Shown piece by piece: positions 36,636 to 64,000 of a stretch of DNA of 64,000 nt (the first letter of the stretch is position 1; each line of letters starts with the position of its first letter). The notes beneath the pieces were generated by a model. The model was not told the DNA's origin and did not search any database. It worked only from the letters and a program-made list of their open reading frames with translations. Source of the DNA: Reichenbachiella agarivorans (lineage in GTDB: Bacteria > Bacteroidota > Bacteroidia > Cytophagales > Cyclobacteriaceae); assembly GCF_025502585.1 (NCBI RefSeq), contig NZ_CP106679.1, forward strand, positions 2,449,501 to 2,513,500, read 5' to 3'. A program made the position numbers and the translations under genes.

Positions 36636-36674
36636 AAAAAAGGGAGTCTTTCTTTACAAAAGACTCCCTTTTTT
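36636..36674. terminator. strong bidirectional terminator
   Basis: GGGAGTCTTT / AAAGACTCCC, a perfect 10-bp stem, flanked by six A and six T, works on either strand. It ends the small lipoprotein gene. Confidence 0.92.
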
Positions 36675-57346: not shown

Positions 57347-60300
57347 TTAATCTTCAGGTCTTTTGGGTAGCTGGATGAGAAATTCGGTGCCTTGACCTAG
57401 CTGGCTATTGACAATGATTTTGCCTTTTAGTTTTTCTACCAGTGCTTTGACGATAGACAGCCCTAAACCACTAGAGCTTTCGCCAGCAGTAGGCTTGGCT
57501 GATAGTTTTTGAAACATCTCAAACATTTTTTTCTGATCTTGTTCGCTGATGCCAGGTCCCTCATCTCGGATAGATATGCTGACAGTATTTCCTTGATTTT
57601 CACAAGTCAGGTGTACTGAGGATCCCGCCTCCGAAAATTTCATGGCATTGGTGAATATATTGTCCAATACCCTTCTGAGTACCTCCTTGTCAGTGGATAC
57701 AAAAAGTTCTGCTTTCGGCAAGGTTAATACTAGCTGTTGGTTCTTTTTATCCAGATTGGTTTGATAGTTGTCCAACCAAGAGTTGATATACTCTACTAGA
57801 TCAAATTCTTCGTTTTTGATTTTGATGTCAAATTGTTTCATGCCATTGACATAGAGCAAATCACTGATTAGTAAATCTCCTTGATTGATTAGTCGATTGA
57901 TGAGCTGGAGATACCTAGATTGTTCCTCATTGAGTTCTCCAGATTTGGTTATCAGGTTGGCTAGGCCTTTTATGTTGTTGAGAGGGGCTCGGAGATCATG
58001 TGCTACGATCCCAATCATCCCATCTTTTTCTCTGTGTAGGTCTTCGAGTAGATTGTTTTTGGTCAAAATATCCTTGTTGTAATCTGTCAACAGTTGCGCC
58101 TGCAACTCTAGTTCTTCTTTCTGACGTACTACTTCGATGGTTCTATTTCGTACCTCTTCTTCCAGCGCTCTTTTTTGATTATAGATAATTTTCATTCTGA
58201 CTTGATAGGAGAAATAGATGAATGCTAAAAAGCTCACAAATAGCAGTAATCTAAACCACCAAGTCATCCACCAAGGAGGTCTGATGATGATACGCACTTG
58301 AGTAATGGAGTCCATCCATTTTCCCTCGGTATTAGTCGCTTTGATACTCAAAAGGTACGTTCCTGGAGGGATGTTGGTGTAGGTTACAAACCTGCGATCA
58401 GCGGAGGTCTGAACCCATTCCTTCTCAAAATTATAGAGCTTATACGCATATTTGATTTGATCTGGATCGATATAGTTGAGAGATGAAAACTCAAAACTAA
58501 ATACAGATTGTTGGTGATTGAGTACGATGGTAGTGATGCTGTCTTCACTGGGGATTTCTACAGTAGACAGCAGGGCAGGTTTGTTGAAGATTTGGAAGCT
58601 GGTGATCCTCGTATGATTGTTTTGAACCAGTGGTTTGATGCTGTCAGGGTGAAACATATTGAAGCCATAGATACCTCCAAATAGCATTCTGCCATCCTTC
58701 ATTTTGAGGCATGACTCTAGGTTGAATTGGTTGTTTTGAAATCCTGTAACAAAATTTCTGATCTCAAATGTGATCAAATTCAACTTACTTAGCCCATGGT
58801 TGGTACTTACCCAAAGGTTGCTATGATCGTCTTCCAAAATGCTGGAGACGTTGTTGTTGGCCAGCCCGTCTTTTTCTTGTATAGTCCTAAAGGAATTTTT
58901 TTCACGGTTATAGATATTTAGTCCACCGCCTTGGGTTCCTATCCATATTTGGTTTTGACTGTCTTGAAAAATGGTTTGAATCTTGTTGTTAGAGATAGAA
59001 GTGGTGTCATTGGGTGAGTATAGATACCTTCTGAATTGCATGGTTTTTCGATCCAATACATTGAGTCCCCAGCTCGTACCCAACCATACCAAGCTATCCC
59101 CATCGAGTAGAATGCTCCATACATTGTCATTGCTCAAAGCAGAAGAATCTTGGCTGTTCCAACCAAAATTTAAGAATTGATCATGGTTTCTGCTGTACAT
59201 ATTGAGTCCTCCACCTATAGTTCCAATCCACAGATTGGCATCTTGATCCTCTTTGATTGTCCAGATGTTGCCGTTGTTTAATTGACCCGTCTCATTGGGG
59301 TTTGCGTAATAGTGAGTGAATTTTTTGGTGGCTGGATTATAGCGGTTGAGTCCATCGTTGTAGGTGCCGATCCAGAGCAGACCTTGGGTATCTTGGTAAA
59401 CCTCCATGACCGAGTTGCCGCTCAAACTATTTTGATCATCACTATTGTAGCTGAAATGTGTGTAGATGTTTTTTTCAACATCAAAGTAATCCACACCCGA
59501 ATGATCCAATCCTATCCAAATGTTGTTTTTTTCATCTTCACAAAATGAGGTGACATTGTTACCATGTATGCCTTCTTCTACTAGAGGGTTGTAGATGGTG
59601 TGCCCAAAGGAGGAATAGCTGGGGTGAAAATAGTTCAAACCGCCACCGTAGGTGCCTATCCAAATCGTGCCATTGTTGTCTTCGTATGCACACCATGCTT
59701 CATCAGAACTGATGGACCAGTCATCAAATTCGTTGTGAAGAAAATGATTGAATGTGTCATTTTTTTTATCGTATAGATTGAGTCCGTTTTGGGTACCTAT
59801 CCATAAGTTGCCTTTGGAATCGTGTAGTATGGCTCTAATATGTCCTTCTCCCACACTGGAACTGTTCTTTTCGTCGTTGGTGTAGTTTACGATTTCTTTG
59901 GTTTTGGTATTTAATCTGCTCAAGCCTGTTTCCGTACCGAACCACAATTCATCGCCATCGCCAGGTTCTATTTGCCATACGTTGCTATTGACTTGACCCT
60001 CATCTATGAGTCGGATGCGCTCAAATTTGCTTTCATTAGGTTTCAATTTGTTGACGTATTCTCCTACAGTAGCGACCCAGATATTGCCTTTTTTGTCTTG
60101 ATACAAATCCATGACCCAATCTTGGGTTAAACTTGTTGGATTCATGGGTTCGTTGACGAAGCGGGTGATTTTTACATTGGGGAAGTCTCCGGTATTTTCT
60201 ATTTTATTAAGCCCACCTCCAAAAGTACCTGCCCAGATATTGCCGTCGCTATCCTCCATAAGCGACCAAACAGAGTTGTGACTGAGTGAGTTTTGGTCTG

Positions 60301-60694
60301 TACCGCTGCTCATTAGTCGATCAAATTGTTCTGTTTTCTTATCAAATCTGCAAAGCCCATATGTGGTGGCTATCCACAAATAACCACGGCGATCTTCGAT
60401 TATCTTGGTGATGAAATTGGAAGAAAGTGTTTTTGACTTTTTGAAATCATTTTGATAGAGCGTGAATTTATGTCCGTCGTATTTGTTGAGCCCATCAAAG
60501 GTGCCAATCCAGATGTAACCCTCACTGTCTTGAAGAATAGTGTTGATGTTGGAGTGAGATAGTCCGTCCTTGACGGATAGGTGTTTGAAGCCTAAGTCGG
60601 TGTAACTGGAACTAGCCCACGCCATACTTATTTGGATTAGAAACAATCCGATGATAAGTAAAATGGCCTTTATGTTAGATTGACTAATGTTCAT
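57347..60694 (-). CDS. sensor histidine kinase with Reg_prop beta-propeller domains
   Basis: A 1115-residue membrane sensor kinase. A signal/anchor at residues about 10-28 precedes some fourteen Reg_prop repeats of the WIGT-x-GGLN-x-Y type to about residue 690, a Y_Y_Y domain (about 710-795), a membrane segment near 805-825, a coiled coil, HisKA with the phospho-acceptor His899 in VAHDLRAPLNN, and HATPase (NAMKFSEAG, DEGPGIS, GLGLSIVKALV). Unlike the hybrid systems of Bacteroides it stops after HATPase, with no receiver or DNA-binding domain, so a separate response regulator is needed and none is nearby. The ligand is unknown; glycans are typical for the family. Confidence 0.92.
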   Translation of the reverse strand: MNISQSNIKAILLIIGLFLIQISMAWASSSYTDLGFKHLSVKDGLSHSNINTILQDSEGYIWIGTFDGLNKYDGHKFTLYQNDFKKSKTLSSNFITKIIEDRRGYLWIATTYGLCRFDKKTEQFDRLMSSGTDQNSLSHNSVWSLMEDSDGNIWAGTFGGGLNKIENTGDFPNVKITRFVNEPMNPTSLTQDWVMDLYQDKKGNIWVATVGEYVNKLKPNESKFERIRLIDEGQVNSNVWQIEPGDGDELWFGTETGLSRLNTKTKEIVNYTNDEKNSSSVGEGHIRAILHDSKGNLWIGTQNGLNLYDKKNDTFNHFLHNEFDDWSISSDEAWCAYEDNNGTIWIGTYGGGLNYFHPSYSSFGHTIYNPLVEEGIHGNNVTSFCEDEKNNIWIGLDHSGVDYFDVEKNIYTHFSYNSDDQNSLSGNSVMEVYQDTQGLLWIGTYNDGLNRYNPATKKFTHYYANPNETGQLNNGNIWTIKEDQDANLWIGTIGGGLNMYSRNHDQFLNFGWNSQDSSALSNDNVWSILLDGDSLVWLGTSWGLNVLDRKTMQFRRYLYSPNDTTSISNNKIQTIFQDSQNQIWIGTQGGGLNIYNREKNSFRTIQEKDGLANNNVSSILEDDHSNLWVSTNHGLSKLNLITFEIRNFVTGFQNNQFNLESCLKMKDGRMLFGGIYGFNMFHPDSIKPLVQNNHTRITSFQIFNKPALLSTVEIPSEDSITTIVLNHQQSVFSFEFSSLNYIDPDQIKYAYKLYNFEKEWVQTSADRRFVTYTNIPPGTYLLSIKATNTEGKWMDSITQVRIIIRPPWWMTWWFRLLLFVSFLAFIYFSYQVRMKIIYNQKRALEEEVRNRTIEVVRQKEELELQAQLLTDYNKDILTKNNLLEDLHREKDGMIGIVAHDLRAPLNNIKGLANLITKSGELNEEQSRYLQLINRLINQGDLLISDLLYVNGMKQFDIKIKNEEFDLVEYINSWLDNYQTNLDKKNQQLVLTLPKAELFVSTDKEVLRRVLDNIFTNAMKFSEAGSSVHLTCENQGNTVSISIRDEGPGISEQDQKKMFEMFQKLSAKPTAGESSSGLGLSIVKALVEKLKGKIIVNSQLGQGTEFLIQLPKRPED

Positions 60695-61109: not shown

Positions 61110-62330
61110 TCAAATTGGCCAATTATCTTCAAACTCACTACCAGCAGCCATAGTAGTCTCCTCCAATTCATTGACCAGACATTTTTTTAATGCGCCTGCA
61201 ATGGCTTCTTTATCCAAATCTTGTCCAATGATGACGAGTTCATTCATGCGATCACCCCATTTCTTATCCCACTTTTTCATTATATCCTGTTGGTTTTCCA
61301 TGTAGGCTTCATTAAGTGCTCGTTCTTTCAAAGGAACTGCTGCCCACCAGCGACCATAAGGCTCGGCTTTGAGTGATCCACCTGCCTGACTCCACATCAA
61401 GGCTTTGTCAGGTCGAGAAGCAATCCAAAACAATCCTTTACTACGAATAATAGTAGTAGGCCATTCATGCTGCACGTATTGCCAAAATCGCTCTGGATGA
61501 AAGGGTCTTCTCTCACGGAATACGAAGGAGGAAATTCCATATTCCTCTGTCTCTGGAGTGTGCTCGTTGTTTAGTTCTTTGATCCAACCTGCTGCCTGCT
61601 CTGCCTTGTCATAGTCAAAAAGTCCAGTGTTCAAAATTTCCCTTGGATCGATTTTGCTATGGTCTGTCCTTATGATTTTGGCTTCTGGATTGAGTTTTTT
61701 CAACGTACCTTCCAAAAGTCCCAAATGCTCCTTGGTTACCAAGTCAGTCTTATTGAGTAGGATGACGTTAGCAAATTCTACTTGATCGGTGAGCAGATTG
61801 ACAATGCTACGTTGGTCTTCTTCATCGTCAGTCATACTTCTGTCCAGAATGGTATCCGAACTACCAAAATCATTGAAGAAATTGAGCGCATCTACGACAG
61901 TAACCATCGTATCCAGCCGACTGAACTTGGTGAGGTCATAGAGTTCATCCCCAGTAGCAAAAGAGAACGTTTGTGCGACAGGAATAGGCTCTGAAATACC
62001 TGTACTTTCTATCAGCAGGTAGTCAAATTTTTTCATTTTGGCCAGCCTTTCTACCTCTATCATCAAATCTTCACGCAAGGTACAACAGATGCAGCCGTTG
62101 CTCATTTCCACAAGCTTTTCGTCCGTACGGGAAAGTTTGATTTCGTTTTGCACCAACTGACTATCTACATTTACTTCGCTCATGTCATTGACGATCACGG
62201 CTACTTTCAGTCCTTGTCTGTTGTGCAGTACATGGTTGAGAAGGGTGGTTTTTCCAGCTCCTAGAAACCCGCTCAGTACCGTAACAGGTAATTTTTTTGT
62301 TCCAAACATTTTATTTTGAAGTATTTTCAT
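61110..62330 (-). CDS. COG0523 (CobW/ZigA-like) GTP-dependent metallochaperone
   Basis: A 407-residue GTPase of the G3E family. Walker A is [12 protein letters not shown], the metal-binding motif is GCICC, and the base-recognition motif is LLNKTDL. The C-terminal CobW_C domain follows from about residue 270 ([12 protein letters not shown]). Members of this family deliver metal, mostly zinc, to client proteins under metal starvation. The start at 62330 is chosen because an ATG at 62357 would overlap the MerC-like gene by 26 bases; one at 62309 is also possible. A palindromic operator upstream of the operon supports metal regulation. Confidence 0.88.
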
Positions 62331-62331
62331 A

Positions 62332-62751
62332 TTATTGACAATCGGGAAACTCCACATTGGATTGTTTTATCTGAGTCCAGTTGACAAGGTGAGCAATCGC
62401 GACTACTGCCGCCCCACAAGATGTTAGTATGATTTCGTACCATTCGACCTGCAACCAGTGACCAAGACCAATGAGAGCAAACCCTGCTACAACAATGACC
62501 AATGCCATTGGTTTTTGATGATGCCTGAGATAACCATGGATCAATGCATAAGAAGCAATAAAACCACTCACAAGGATGATGGTGTATTCAATCCATGGAT
62601 TATTGAGAAACTGAAGGCCAGTTAAGGAGGCTAGACTGAGTAAGAACGGAAGTGCCACACAATGCAGGGCACAAAGCAACGAAGCACTGAAACCGACAAA
62701 ATCCAAATGAGATCCAATAAACTGATTTTTCATATTTTTCGTTAATAGCAA
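62332..62751 (-). CDS. MerC-domain membrane protein
   Basis: A 139-residue protein with four hydrophobic segments (from about residues 15, 44, 70 and 100). [18 protein letters not shown] is the MerC signature with its cysteine pair. MerC carries mercury ions in resistance operons, but similar proteins occur next to zinc-regulated COG0523 genes without other mer genes, as here. A role in metal movement across the inner membrane is inferred. It is the first gene of the leftward operon, starting right after the shared palindrome, one base from the GTPase gene. Confidence 0.82.
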
Positions 62752-62759
62752 CAGAGTTG

Positions 62760-62789
62760 CAAATATAACATCTAAATCAATAAATGCAA
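62760..62789 (-). promoter_or_regulatory. leftward promoter of the MerC-COG0523 operon
   Basis: Read leftward: TTG at 62789-62787, 19 bases, then TATATTTG at 62767-62760, a full Bacteroidota promoter. Its -33 box is inside the left arm of the palindrome. Confidence 0.75.
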
Positions 62790-62810
62790 TATTGTTGCGT
62801 TTATTGATTT
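62774..62810. promoter_or_regulatory. palindromic operator, possible Zur-type site
   Basis: Arms AAATCAATAAATGCAA (62774-62789) and TTGCGTTTATTGATTT (62795-62810) match at 15 of 16 positions around TATTG. The core TGCAATA-T-TGTTGCG (62785-62799) has the 7-1-7 layout used by Fur-family regulators. It contains the -33 boxes of both divergent promoters, so one bound regulator could shut off both operons. Zinc and Zur are inferred from the genes it controls. Confidence 0.7.
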
Positions 62811-62825
62811 CACTTGATAGGTTTG
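62795..62825 (+). promoter_or_regulatory. rightward promoter of the ABC transporter operon
   Basis: TTG at 62795-62797, a 20-base spacer and TAGGTTTG at 62818-62825. The -33 box lies in the right arm of the palindrome. Transcription would start about 10 bases before the ATG at 62842. Confidence 0.7.
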
Positions 62826-62841
62826 CGATAAAAGAGAGAAA

Positions 62842-63468
62842 ATGTTTAAGACTCAGTCGCTATTTTTTACTTATAACAACTCTGTCGATTTTAGCTTCCC
62901 AGACATAGAGCTAGATGCAGGTGAGAATCTATTAATCCTTGGTGAATCTGGCATTGGCAAAACCACTCTGCTACATTTGATCGCTGGGTTGCTACGTCCA
63001 GTATCTGGGAGTGTAGAACTGCTCGGGACCTCAATTCATCAACTATCTTCTACCCAGCTGGATAGTTTTAGAGGTCAACATATCGGACTTGTGTTTCAAC
63101 GTCCGCATTTTATTCATTCTCTTTCATTATATGAAAACCTAGCATTGGTACAATATTTAGCTGGAGAAAACCCGAATCAAAACAGGATAAATAATGTCCT
63201 TGCTAGTTTGGGGATTAGGCGTAAGCAAGGCGAAAAACCTCACCGATTGAGTCAAGGTGAACAACAGCGGGCAGCAATCGCCTTGGCGATGGTTAATAAT
63301 CCTCAGCTTATTCTGGCAGATAAACCCACCTCTAGTCTGGATGATAGAAACTGCATGAAAGTAGCAATTCTATTGAAAGAACAAGCCTTAGAAACAGGGG
63401 CAAGACTTATTATCATTACCCATGATCAGCGACTAAAGAATCATTTTTCACATACAATGCAGCTATGA
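62842..63468 (+). CDS. ABC transporter ATP-binding protein (LolD/MacB-like)
   Basis: A 208-residue ATPase. Walker A is GESGIGKTTL, the Q-loop is in VFQRPHFIHSLS, the signature is LSQGEQQRAAIA and the switch histidine is in IIITHDQ. In Walker B, LILADKPTSSLDD, the catalytic glutamate after Asp160 is replaced by Lys161 (codon AAA at 63322-63324). That change normally cripples ATP hydrolysis, so this domain could be slow or rely on a partner. The gene overlaps the permease by four bases. It shares its operator with the COG0523 operon; a zinc-uptake role similar to ZrgB of Vibrio cholerae is possible but inferred. Confidence 0.85.
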   Translation: MFKTQSLFFTYNNSVDFSFPDIELDAGENLLILGESGIGKTTLLHLIAGLLRPVSGSVELLGTSIHQLSSTQLDSFRGQHIGLVFQRPHFIHSLSLYENLALVQYLAGENPNQNRINNVLASLGIRRKQGEKPHRLSQGEQQRAAIALAMVNNPQLILADKPTSSLDDRNCMKVAILLKEQALETGARLIIITHDQRLKNHFSHTMQL

Positions 63469-64000
63469 ATATTTTTAAGTTGAGCTATCGAAACATGATA
63501 AGTCGTCCGCTGAGCACGACACTCTGTCTGGTACTCCTGACTTTAGGTGTAGGAATGATTTCTTTGCTTTTGCAAGTCAACCACCACATAGAGCAGCAAA
63601 TGGGAAATAACGTGCGAGGCATTGATATGGTGGTTGGAGCAAAAGGTAGTCCGCTACAATTGATCCTTTCGGCGGTCTATCACATAGATGCTCCTACCGG
63701 TAATATTTCTATGAAGGAAGCAGAAAAGCTTAAAAGGAACCGACTGGTGGCTGCCGGCATCCCTCTTTCTTATGGTGATAGTTACAAGGGGTATAGAATT
63801 GTAGGCACGAGTTTCGACTATCCAAAGCTATATGAAGGTTCATTAGCCAGTGGCAGATTATGGCAGAAACCTAACGAAGTGACCATTGGAGCTATGGTAG
63901 CCAAAAACCTAGGGCTGAAGTTGGGCGATGCATTTGTTGGTTCTCACGGTCTCGCCGAAGGCGGTGAGGTTCACGATGAGCAGCGCTATGAGGTAGTTGG
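63465..64000 (+). CDS. FtsX/MacB-type ABC transporter permease, N-terminal part (cut by window edge)
   Basis: The frame starts at an ATG overlapping the ATPase stop and stays open to the window end (178 codons). It has one N-terminal membrane segment (LCLVLLTLGVGMISLLLQVN) and then the start of a MacB-type periplasmic domain (GIDMVVGAKGSPLQLILSAV). The membrane bundle expected at the C-terminus is beyond the window. Together with the ATPase it forms a LolCDE/MacB-like exporter or lipid/protein extractor under the shared operator. Confidence 0.85.
   Translation, partial: MNIFKLSYRNMISRPLSTTLCLVLLTLGVGMISLLLQVNHHIEQQMGNNVRGIDMVVGAKGSPLQLILSAVYHIDAPTGNISMKEAEKLKRNRLVAAGIPLSYGDSYKGYRIVGTSFDYPKLYEGSLASGRLWQKPNEVTIGAMVAKNLGLKLGDAFVGSHGLAEGGEVHDEQRYEVV

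Follow-up and report, generated by a model that had tools for sequence, protein, structure and literature searches.

Two divergent operons of Reichenbachiella agarivorans, one encoding a MerC-domain membrane protein and a COG0523 GTPase and the other beginning with an ATP-binding cassette (ABC) transporter, are separated by a long palindrome near the end of the window, a stretch of 64,000 nucleotides (G000:C1:2449501-2513500 in a single-contig genome of 4.47 Mb). We consider it about 80% probable that this intergenic region exerts Zur-type control in both directions, with one zinc-sensing repressor most likely switching both operons on when zinc is scarce. The original prediction, made from the window's sequence alone, had proposed a single regulator for both operons and a zinc-scarcity system of the Bacteroidota. 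Comparison with other genomes lends sequence support to both ideas: the box recurs before a Fur-family gene of the same genome and, in relatives, before genes for HisI paralogues, DUF1826 proteins, and ZigA-type proteins.

The palindrome, ATCAATAAATGCAATA-T-TGTTGCGTTTATTGAT, has arms of 16 bp with two mismatches and a single central base, and it lies in the 108 bp between the start codons of the MerC and ABC ATPase genes (Table 1). Exactly as first described, it holds the -33 elements of both promoters: the leftward promoter is TTG-N19-TATATTTG, the rightward promoter is TTG-N20-TAGGTTTG, and both TTGs fall within the inner 15 bp, TGCAATATTGTTGCG, which we call box A. (TAnnTTTG is the -7 consensus according to PMC7366714.) Beyond the original prediction, a second and weaker box, AGCAACAGAGTTGCA (box B), sits on the leftward -7 element, 38 bp from box A. 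In first-order Markov simulations, 0.1 such palindromes are expected per 64 kb (2 in total in 20 runs); the window has three of equal quality (gap of 0 to 2), and the other two, which start at 36639 and 11120, also have 16-bp arms with two mismatches each. We rejected a chance palindrome on the strength of these simulations, the spacing of tandem boxes, and shuffles of the promoter geometry (see below).

We searched genomes with a strict box pattern, YGCAAYANTRTTGCR, and with an exact core, YGCAAYNNNRTTGCR, using the reversed pattern as a control. The strict pattern occurs three times in the genome of R. agarivorans, and the control does not occur. Besides the window locus, it is found upstream of the next operon, on the other strand, where a pair of boxes is spaced by 36 bp; that operon encodes a second COG0523 protein along with an ABC ATPase, two DUF3526 permeases, and a TonB receptor of the siderophore type. 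The third box ends 9 bp ahead of a Fur-family gene, measured to its first ATG (another lies within a few codons), and a TonB receptor gene comes next. Looser scans of this genome gave too many matches to interpret and were not used (131 versus 40 for the control at two mismatches; 218 versus 64 with another pattern at three mismatches). Across this genome and its relatives (23 genomes), we found 56 strict sites in 17 genomes, versus 1 for the control, and a sample of 99 genomes from the class had 63 strict sites in 34 genomes, versus 6 for the control; the genome of R. agarivorans is counted in both samples, and the compared genomes are related, so these counts are not independent.

We also looked upstream of homologous ABC operons, 70 of whose 80 loci had a usable start for the ATPase. 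The strict pattern, with up to one mismatch, is present in 11 of the 70 upstream regions; none of 300 permuted palindromes reached that number, and the best of them, with 9, was a near-copy. The exact core is present at 6 of the 8 loci with a neighboring MerC or COG0523 gene, versus 4 of the 62 loci without one (Fisher test, 4e-5), and the difference persists if one mismatch is allowed in the core (6/8 versus 11/62) or in the strict pattern (5/8 versus 6/62). The two exceptions among the eight (L123 and L138) have boxes elsewhere in the fetched cluster. Thus, the box tracks the combination of MerC or COG0523 with the ABC operon, not the transporter as such. This comparison bears on the refuting condition of the original prediction, absence of the palindrome in relatives with the same genes. 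We rejected the idea that the box is universal to this ABC family, as most homologues without these neighbors, such as the Dyadobacter loci, lack the exact core. The MerC//ABC arrangement is accompanied by a pair of boxes in the window and at L031, L066, L070, L076, and L200; at L078, the second box has more than two mismatches, and at L060, 1.1 kb separates MerC from the boxes.

Pairs of boxes are common. Around 71 strict boxes in different contexts, we searched for a second box with up to two mismatches within 60 bp and found 29 tandem pairs, 23 of which are spaced by 35 to 40 bp; shuffled flanks yield 0.2 second boxes per set. The distance of 38 bp arises because a promoter of the form TTG-N19-TAnnTTTG has its TTG in one box while the end of its TTTG opens the other. 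Allowing N16-21 and one C in the TTT of the -7 element, this fused form is present in 15 of the 23 pairs (shuffles had a mean of 1.6 and a maximum of 10, and 0 of 2,000 reached 15) and absent from 8. An outward promoter draws its -33 element from a box in 9 of the 23 pairs, and 7 have both features (shuffle mean, 0.06). As relatives are not independent, P values in these tandem and flank statistics are overstated. In an alignment of 10 regions, which were chosen for having the arrangement, the two boxes and the TATATTTGCAAC junction are conserved, as is most of the ABC -7 element. Two of these regions, L169 and L180, do not have the ABC operon beside the boxes; at L169:3979-4009, the outward promoter match is kept on the side where the window has its ABC operon. 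As an alternative to a second operator, box B and the constant spacing might simply follow from the AT-rich sequence of promoters. Box B does have a mismatch in its core, and TTTGCAA can be derived in part from TAnnTTTG, but the common spacing, the scarcity of second boxes in shuffled flanks, and the conservation of box and -7 letters in the alignment make this very improbable. Box pairs that are 35 to 40 bp apart and merged with -33 and -7 elements recur across genera, which goes beyond the original prediction.

The genes at the boxes point to zinc. In another genome of the genus (L182), a box lies about 240 bp ahead of genes for a HisI paralogue and a ZigA-type protein. Elsewhere in the family (L194), the box is followed by MerC, an unidentified gene, DUF1826, a HisI paralogue, and a COG0523 gene that is close to the window's. 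HisI paralogues and DUF1826 are named among the Zur-controlled COG0523 clusters in PMC2770081. More distantly, within the class, the box lies between a Fur-family gene and either a COG0523 gene (L227) or MerC (L228), between a Fur-family gene and a small open reading frame (ORF) with a flavoprotein gene (L240), or 436 bp before a set of genes for an ABC ATPase, a permease, and a ZrgE-like protein (L238). Judged by sequence, the predicted targets of the box match genes of zinc uptake and zinc sparing (the HisI paralogue, DUF1826, ZigA-type COG0523, and Zrg-like genes), and the MerC-domain protein recurs in the predicted regulon, a recurrence that the original prediction did not include. At L195, a gene for GTP cyclohydrolase I and the ABC operon flank the box; because the box is nearer to the ABC gene, control of the cyclohydrolase gene is uncertain. 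A thioredoxin-reductase-like flavoprotein of about 300 amino acids also recurs beside the box (L166, L171, L176, L178, L186, L223, L230, L240, and L241), once in line with COG0523 (L241). Three of these flavoproteins scored 82 to 97 bits against thioredoxin reductase, whose cutoff is 343 bits; this family is a possible new member of the regulon.

The core consensus of the box agrees with the Zur box of Desulfovibrio, ATGCAACnnnGTTGCAT, which is predicted rather than proven (PMC545781), and does not match the Gram-positive type quoted in the same paper, TAAATCGTAATNATTACGATTTA. R. agarivorans has two candidate Zur proteins of the Fur family, and of the eight ligand positions of Escherichia coli Zur (PMC4219657), both retain six (His77, Cys88, Cys103, Cys106, Cys143, and Cys146). 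Another locus (L028) encodes a third Zur-like protein, and a Fur/PerR-like protein (L027) is without the Zur cysteines. In genome G126, the Fur-family protein of the ABC operon (L195:9570-9995) has Ser at the position of Cys88. The correspondence of Fur-family proteins between genomes rests on gene context, as 12 of 19 inner branches of their tree are open. The TonB receptor behind the boxed Fur-family gene is weakly ZnuD-like by its match to the ZnuD model (73.4 bits).

Several observations weigh against zinc control. Next to 51 strict boxes in relatives, we found 19 genes of the zinc-type set, 6 flavoproteins, and 26 others; these others include one TonB receptor as identified by Pfam (L168), along with peptidases, a NYN-domain protein, and similar. 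Within the class, 14 of 23 next genes are neither zinc type (6) nor flavoproteins (3). The sole ZnuA-family gene that we found has no box at up to three mismatches (in 1.5 kb fetched on each side). The exact core is absent upstream of 58 of the 62 ABC operons without MerC or COG0523 neighbors, and box A departs from the Desulfovibrio consensus at 2 of 12 fixed letters. Among the ligands, His96 is kept only in the L026 protein (the L025 protein has Asp, flanked by His at a distance of two residues in both directions), and the position of Glu111 is ambiguous in the alignment of both candidates. The candidates score 37.6 and 42.4 bits on the Zur model PRK11639, far below its cutoff of 167, and the box-linked Fur-family proteins of two relatives match a PerR model best. 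Finally, the ZnuD-like receptor matches a heme/transferrin-receptor model equally (74.3 bits), and both scores are far under the cutoff, which for ZnuD is 950.

The box might instead serve a Fur-family regulator of another metal, such as manganese, iron, or cobalt, with both operons handling that metal. The ligand sets of Fur-family proteins are alike, scores with PerR or Fur models are close to those with the Zur model, cobalt is the metal of some COG0523 proteins, and the TonB receptor of the neighboring boxed operon is of a siderophore type (TIGR01783, 291.2 bits; cutoff, 223.5); the lack of a box at the ZnuA-family gene would fit as well. However, the HisI paralogue, DUF1826, and ZigA-type genes at boxes fit zinc starvation, the core of the box corresponds to that of a predicted Zur box, and the ABC module is homologous to the zinc-induced zrgBC. 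We therefore consider another metal unlikely and zinc the probable signal.

The gene identities in the original prediction (COG0523, MerC, ABC ATPase, and FtsX/MacB-type permease) were borne out by Pfam and NCBIfam profiles. With both domains above their cutoffs, the COG0523 protein belongs to the COG0523/CobW domain family; its best NCBIfam model is ZigA (NF038288), at 570.7 bits, which is under the cutoff of 600, and the next model scored 173 bits. The ATPase and the permease are under the equivalog cutoffs for LolD (159.7 versus 307.75 bits) and LolCE (47.3 versus 362.45 bits). An alternative TTG start for MerC, at 62751, roughly coincides with the expected start of transcription. Seven aligned MerC proteins share C22, H25, C26, H72, H73, and H116 (numbered by the first row of the alignment), and a structure model has four helices (mean predicted local distance difference test [pLDDT], 70.8). 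The MerC of mercury operons likewise has the Pfam MerC domain, four helices, and conserved Cys and His; here, the context is zinc type, and we recognized no mercury gene among the neighbors. No title on MerC in zinc uptake was among the matches listed for papers with MerC, Zur, and zinc. The ABC operon extends past the window, which the original prediction did not cover. Its DUF3299-like protein had no match in a PDB sequence search with the single sequence, and the top match with an alignment was weak (4hsp, E = 0.17). Adjoining the locus, at 57347-60694, is an ORF of 1,115 amino acids whose translation reads as propeller-like repeats with a C-terminal histidine-kinase-like part.

Table 1. 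Features of the divergent locus, in window positions (numbers above 64000 lie past the end of the window)
Feature	Position	Strand	Basis or remark
COG0523 GTPase, ZigA-type	61110..62309 (alternative ORF start 62357)	-	PF02492 1.4e-57, PF07683 1.8e-28
MerC-domain membrane protein	62332..62733 (ATG 62733)	-	PF03203 86.8 bits, cutoff 27.6
Box B, weaker Zur-type box AGCAACAGAGTTGCA	62747..62761	strandless	1 mismatch to YGCAAYNNNRTTGCR, 2 to YGCAAYANTRTTGCR; position kept in 10-region alignment
Leftward -7 element TATATTTG	62760..62767	-	TAnnTTTG consensus
Full palindrome	62776..62808	strandless	16-bp arms, 2 mismatches, center 62792
Box A, core Zur-type box TGCAATATTGTTGCG, both -33 TTG inside	62785..62799	strandless	pattern match
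Leftward -33 TTG, within box A	62787..62789	-	promoter match
Rightward -33 TTG, within box A	62795..62797	+	promoter match
Rightward -7 element TAGGTTTG	62818..62825	+	promoter match; complement CAAAnnTA largely kept in 10-region alignment
ABC ATPase, LolD-like (ZrgC-like)	62842..63468	+	PF00005 2.5e-30
FtsX/MacB-type permease (ZrgB-like), first 178 residues in window	63465..64000, gene end 64712	+	profile match
DUF3299-like gene	64705-65139		after the permease gene; 144-aa secreted-type protein
Fur-family gene	65201 or 65234 to 65671		after the DUF3299-like gene; ends ABC operon

The proposal that the ABC pair resembles ZrgB and ZrgC of Vibrio is upheld by homology: the permease has 29.3% identity over 91% to an Aeromonas permease encoded near ZrgA (E = 2e-28) and 26.0% identity to one near ZrgA in Phaeobacter (E = 3e-29), and it is also homologous to one near ZrgA in a Pseudomonas record. 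In V. parahaemolyticus, the zrg genes are up 76- to 206-fold without zinc, and zrgE is a DUF3299 gene (PMC9817125). The Phaeobacter operon has the order Fur-family, ZrgA, ATPase, permease, and DUF3299. ZrgA (PF10986) was found in none of 118 genomes from the order, including that of R. agarivorans, while the permease is present in 48 of a sample of 118; both positive-control records matched ZrgA. We therefore rejected filing the system as ZrgABCDE. As for ZrgE (DUF3299, PF11736), three of five homologues match (best E = 7.3e-4) and the R. agarivorans protein does not; its BLASTP hit to the Phaeobacter DUF3299 protein has E = 0.49.

Toward the end of their periplasmic-type domain, the permeases of the Bacteroidota carry a loop with many His, Asp, and Glu residues. 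We counted its histidines in 80 named loci, L031, and the window permease: there are 5 to 21 in the 10 box-associated permeases, a group listed by hand, and a median of 4 (range, 0 to 20) in the other 72, among which loci with weaker boxes (L065, L084, L124, and L125) are counted. The His-rich loop is thus spread beyond the box-associated permeases. The loop has 0 or 1 His in three of three ZrgA-linked permeases, so that contrast rests on three proteins; there are 13 in a ZrgA-less permease from Ruegeria and 0 to 7 in five permeases linked to alkaline phosphatase. The Ruegeria locus, on a plasmid of Ruegeria conchae (L218), has genes for a biotin/lipoyl-binding protein, the ATPase, the 13-His-loop permease, and DUF3299, with no DUF2796 annotated beside them. 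At the other five (L216, L217, L219, L221, and L222), which are on plasmids of Deinococcus, Thermus, Shinella, Rhizobium, and Qingshengfaniella, the Zrg-like ATPase and permease follow an alkaline phosphatase gene and a small unidentified gene. A structure model of a homologue with 74% identity to our permease (L060; mean pLDDT, 80.3) contains a long helix, a mixed domain, and another three long helices, in keeping with ZrgB as described in PMC9820375; the loop, at 206-237 of the model, is of very low confidence.

Even if zinc control is right, the ABC module might not be an importer but might, in the manner of LolCDE or MacB, transport a lipoprotein or remodel the envelope in zinc scarcity. 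A profile search with the permease matches structures of LolE, LolF, MacB, YtrF, and FtsX, and the L060 model has four long membrane-type helices and a periplasmic-type domain. ABC proteins of this type are usually not used for import, and ZrgA was not found. Yet the zrg operon of V. cholerae is required, along with znu, for normal growth without zinc (PMC9820375), and the His/Glu-rich loop suggests metal handling. We view such a non-importer as less likely than not.

The sites, the promoter matches, the gene identities, their conservation, the genes found at boxes, the failed search for ZrgA, and the His-rich loop are all seen in sequence. We infer zinc as the signal, the Fur-family protein that binds, repression, and the direction of transport, and combine them as follows. 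A zinc-loaded Fur-family repressor on box A would cover the two -33 elements simultaneously. The most likely repressor is the protein encoded behind its own box at G000:C1:3319677, and the second candidate is its paralogue encoded last in the ABC operon. Also bound at box B, the repressor would cover the -7 element on the MerC-COG0523 side. Occupation of both -33 elements by one dimer and of the left -7 element by a second would fit repression of the two operons together, with MerC-COG0523 the more tightly shut. As zinc falls, the repressor would depart and both operons would start. To the left, these would yield the MerC-domain protein, which may take up zinc across the inner membrane, and the ZigA-type COG0523 GTPase, which may deliver zinc to client proteins. 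The rightward products would be a Zrg-type ABC transporter that lacks ZrgA and has a His/Glu-rich loop in its own permease, a DUF3299-like secreted protein, and a member of the Fur family that may feed back. Going one step further, the singly covered ABC promoter might open before the doubly covered MerC-COG0523 promoter; this transfers, by analogy, the stepwise release of Zur targets in Bacillus subtilis (PMC5007448). Taken as a whole, a more ambitious picture strikes us as doubtful: a MacB/LolE-type zinc importer of the Bacteroidota that has no solute-binding protein and uses a permease loop in place of ZrgA, with MerC as a second entry for zinc at the inner membrane, and Zur operators merged letter by letter with both promoter elements of the phylum's own sigma factor, two operons being closed by one site and released in an order set by a second.

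This system resembles known ones in part. Like the Zur/COG0523 (YciC) regulons of Proteobacteria (PMC2770081), it has a palindrome upstream of COG0523, HisI-paralogue, and Fur-family genes; it differs in its core (TGCAAC-NNN-GTTGCA), in its MerC member, in the merging of operators with -33 and -7 elements, and in sharing one box between two divergent operons. It has the core consensus of the predicted Desulfovibrio Zur box, likewise located at zinc genes that have a Fur-family gene linked to them; however, that box precedes znuABC-zur (PMC545781), whereas ours, frequently present as a tandem pair, is at ZrgBC-like, MerC, and COG0523 genes. With the ZrgABCDE systems of Vibrio (PMC9820375 and PMC9817125), it has in common an ATPase, a MacB-like permease, and a putative DUF3299-type protein in one operon, and, as predicted here, zinc-type control. 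In contrast, ZrgA was not found here, the permease has an inserted His/Glu-rich loop, and MerC and COG0523 are linked; no ZrgD was seen among the ORFs of the operon, although no profile search for ZrgD was made.

Among the matches listed for open-licence PMC papers, by title and start of abstract, none was seen to describe a zinc regulon or Zur box of Bacteroidota, and the string "Bacteroid" is absent from a review of Zur regulons (PMC6103462). If our reading is true, it would give the phylum Bacteroidota a testable Zur box, and MerC-domain proteins would be likely zinc-starvation proteins. Naturally lacking ZrgA, the system would also offer a form of the puzzling MacB-like zinc transporters that would allow direct tests of import versus export.

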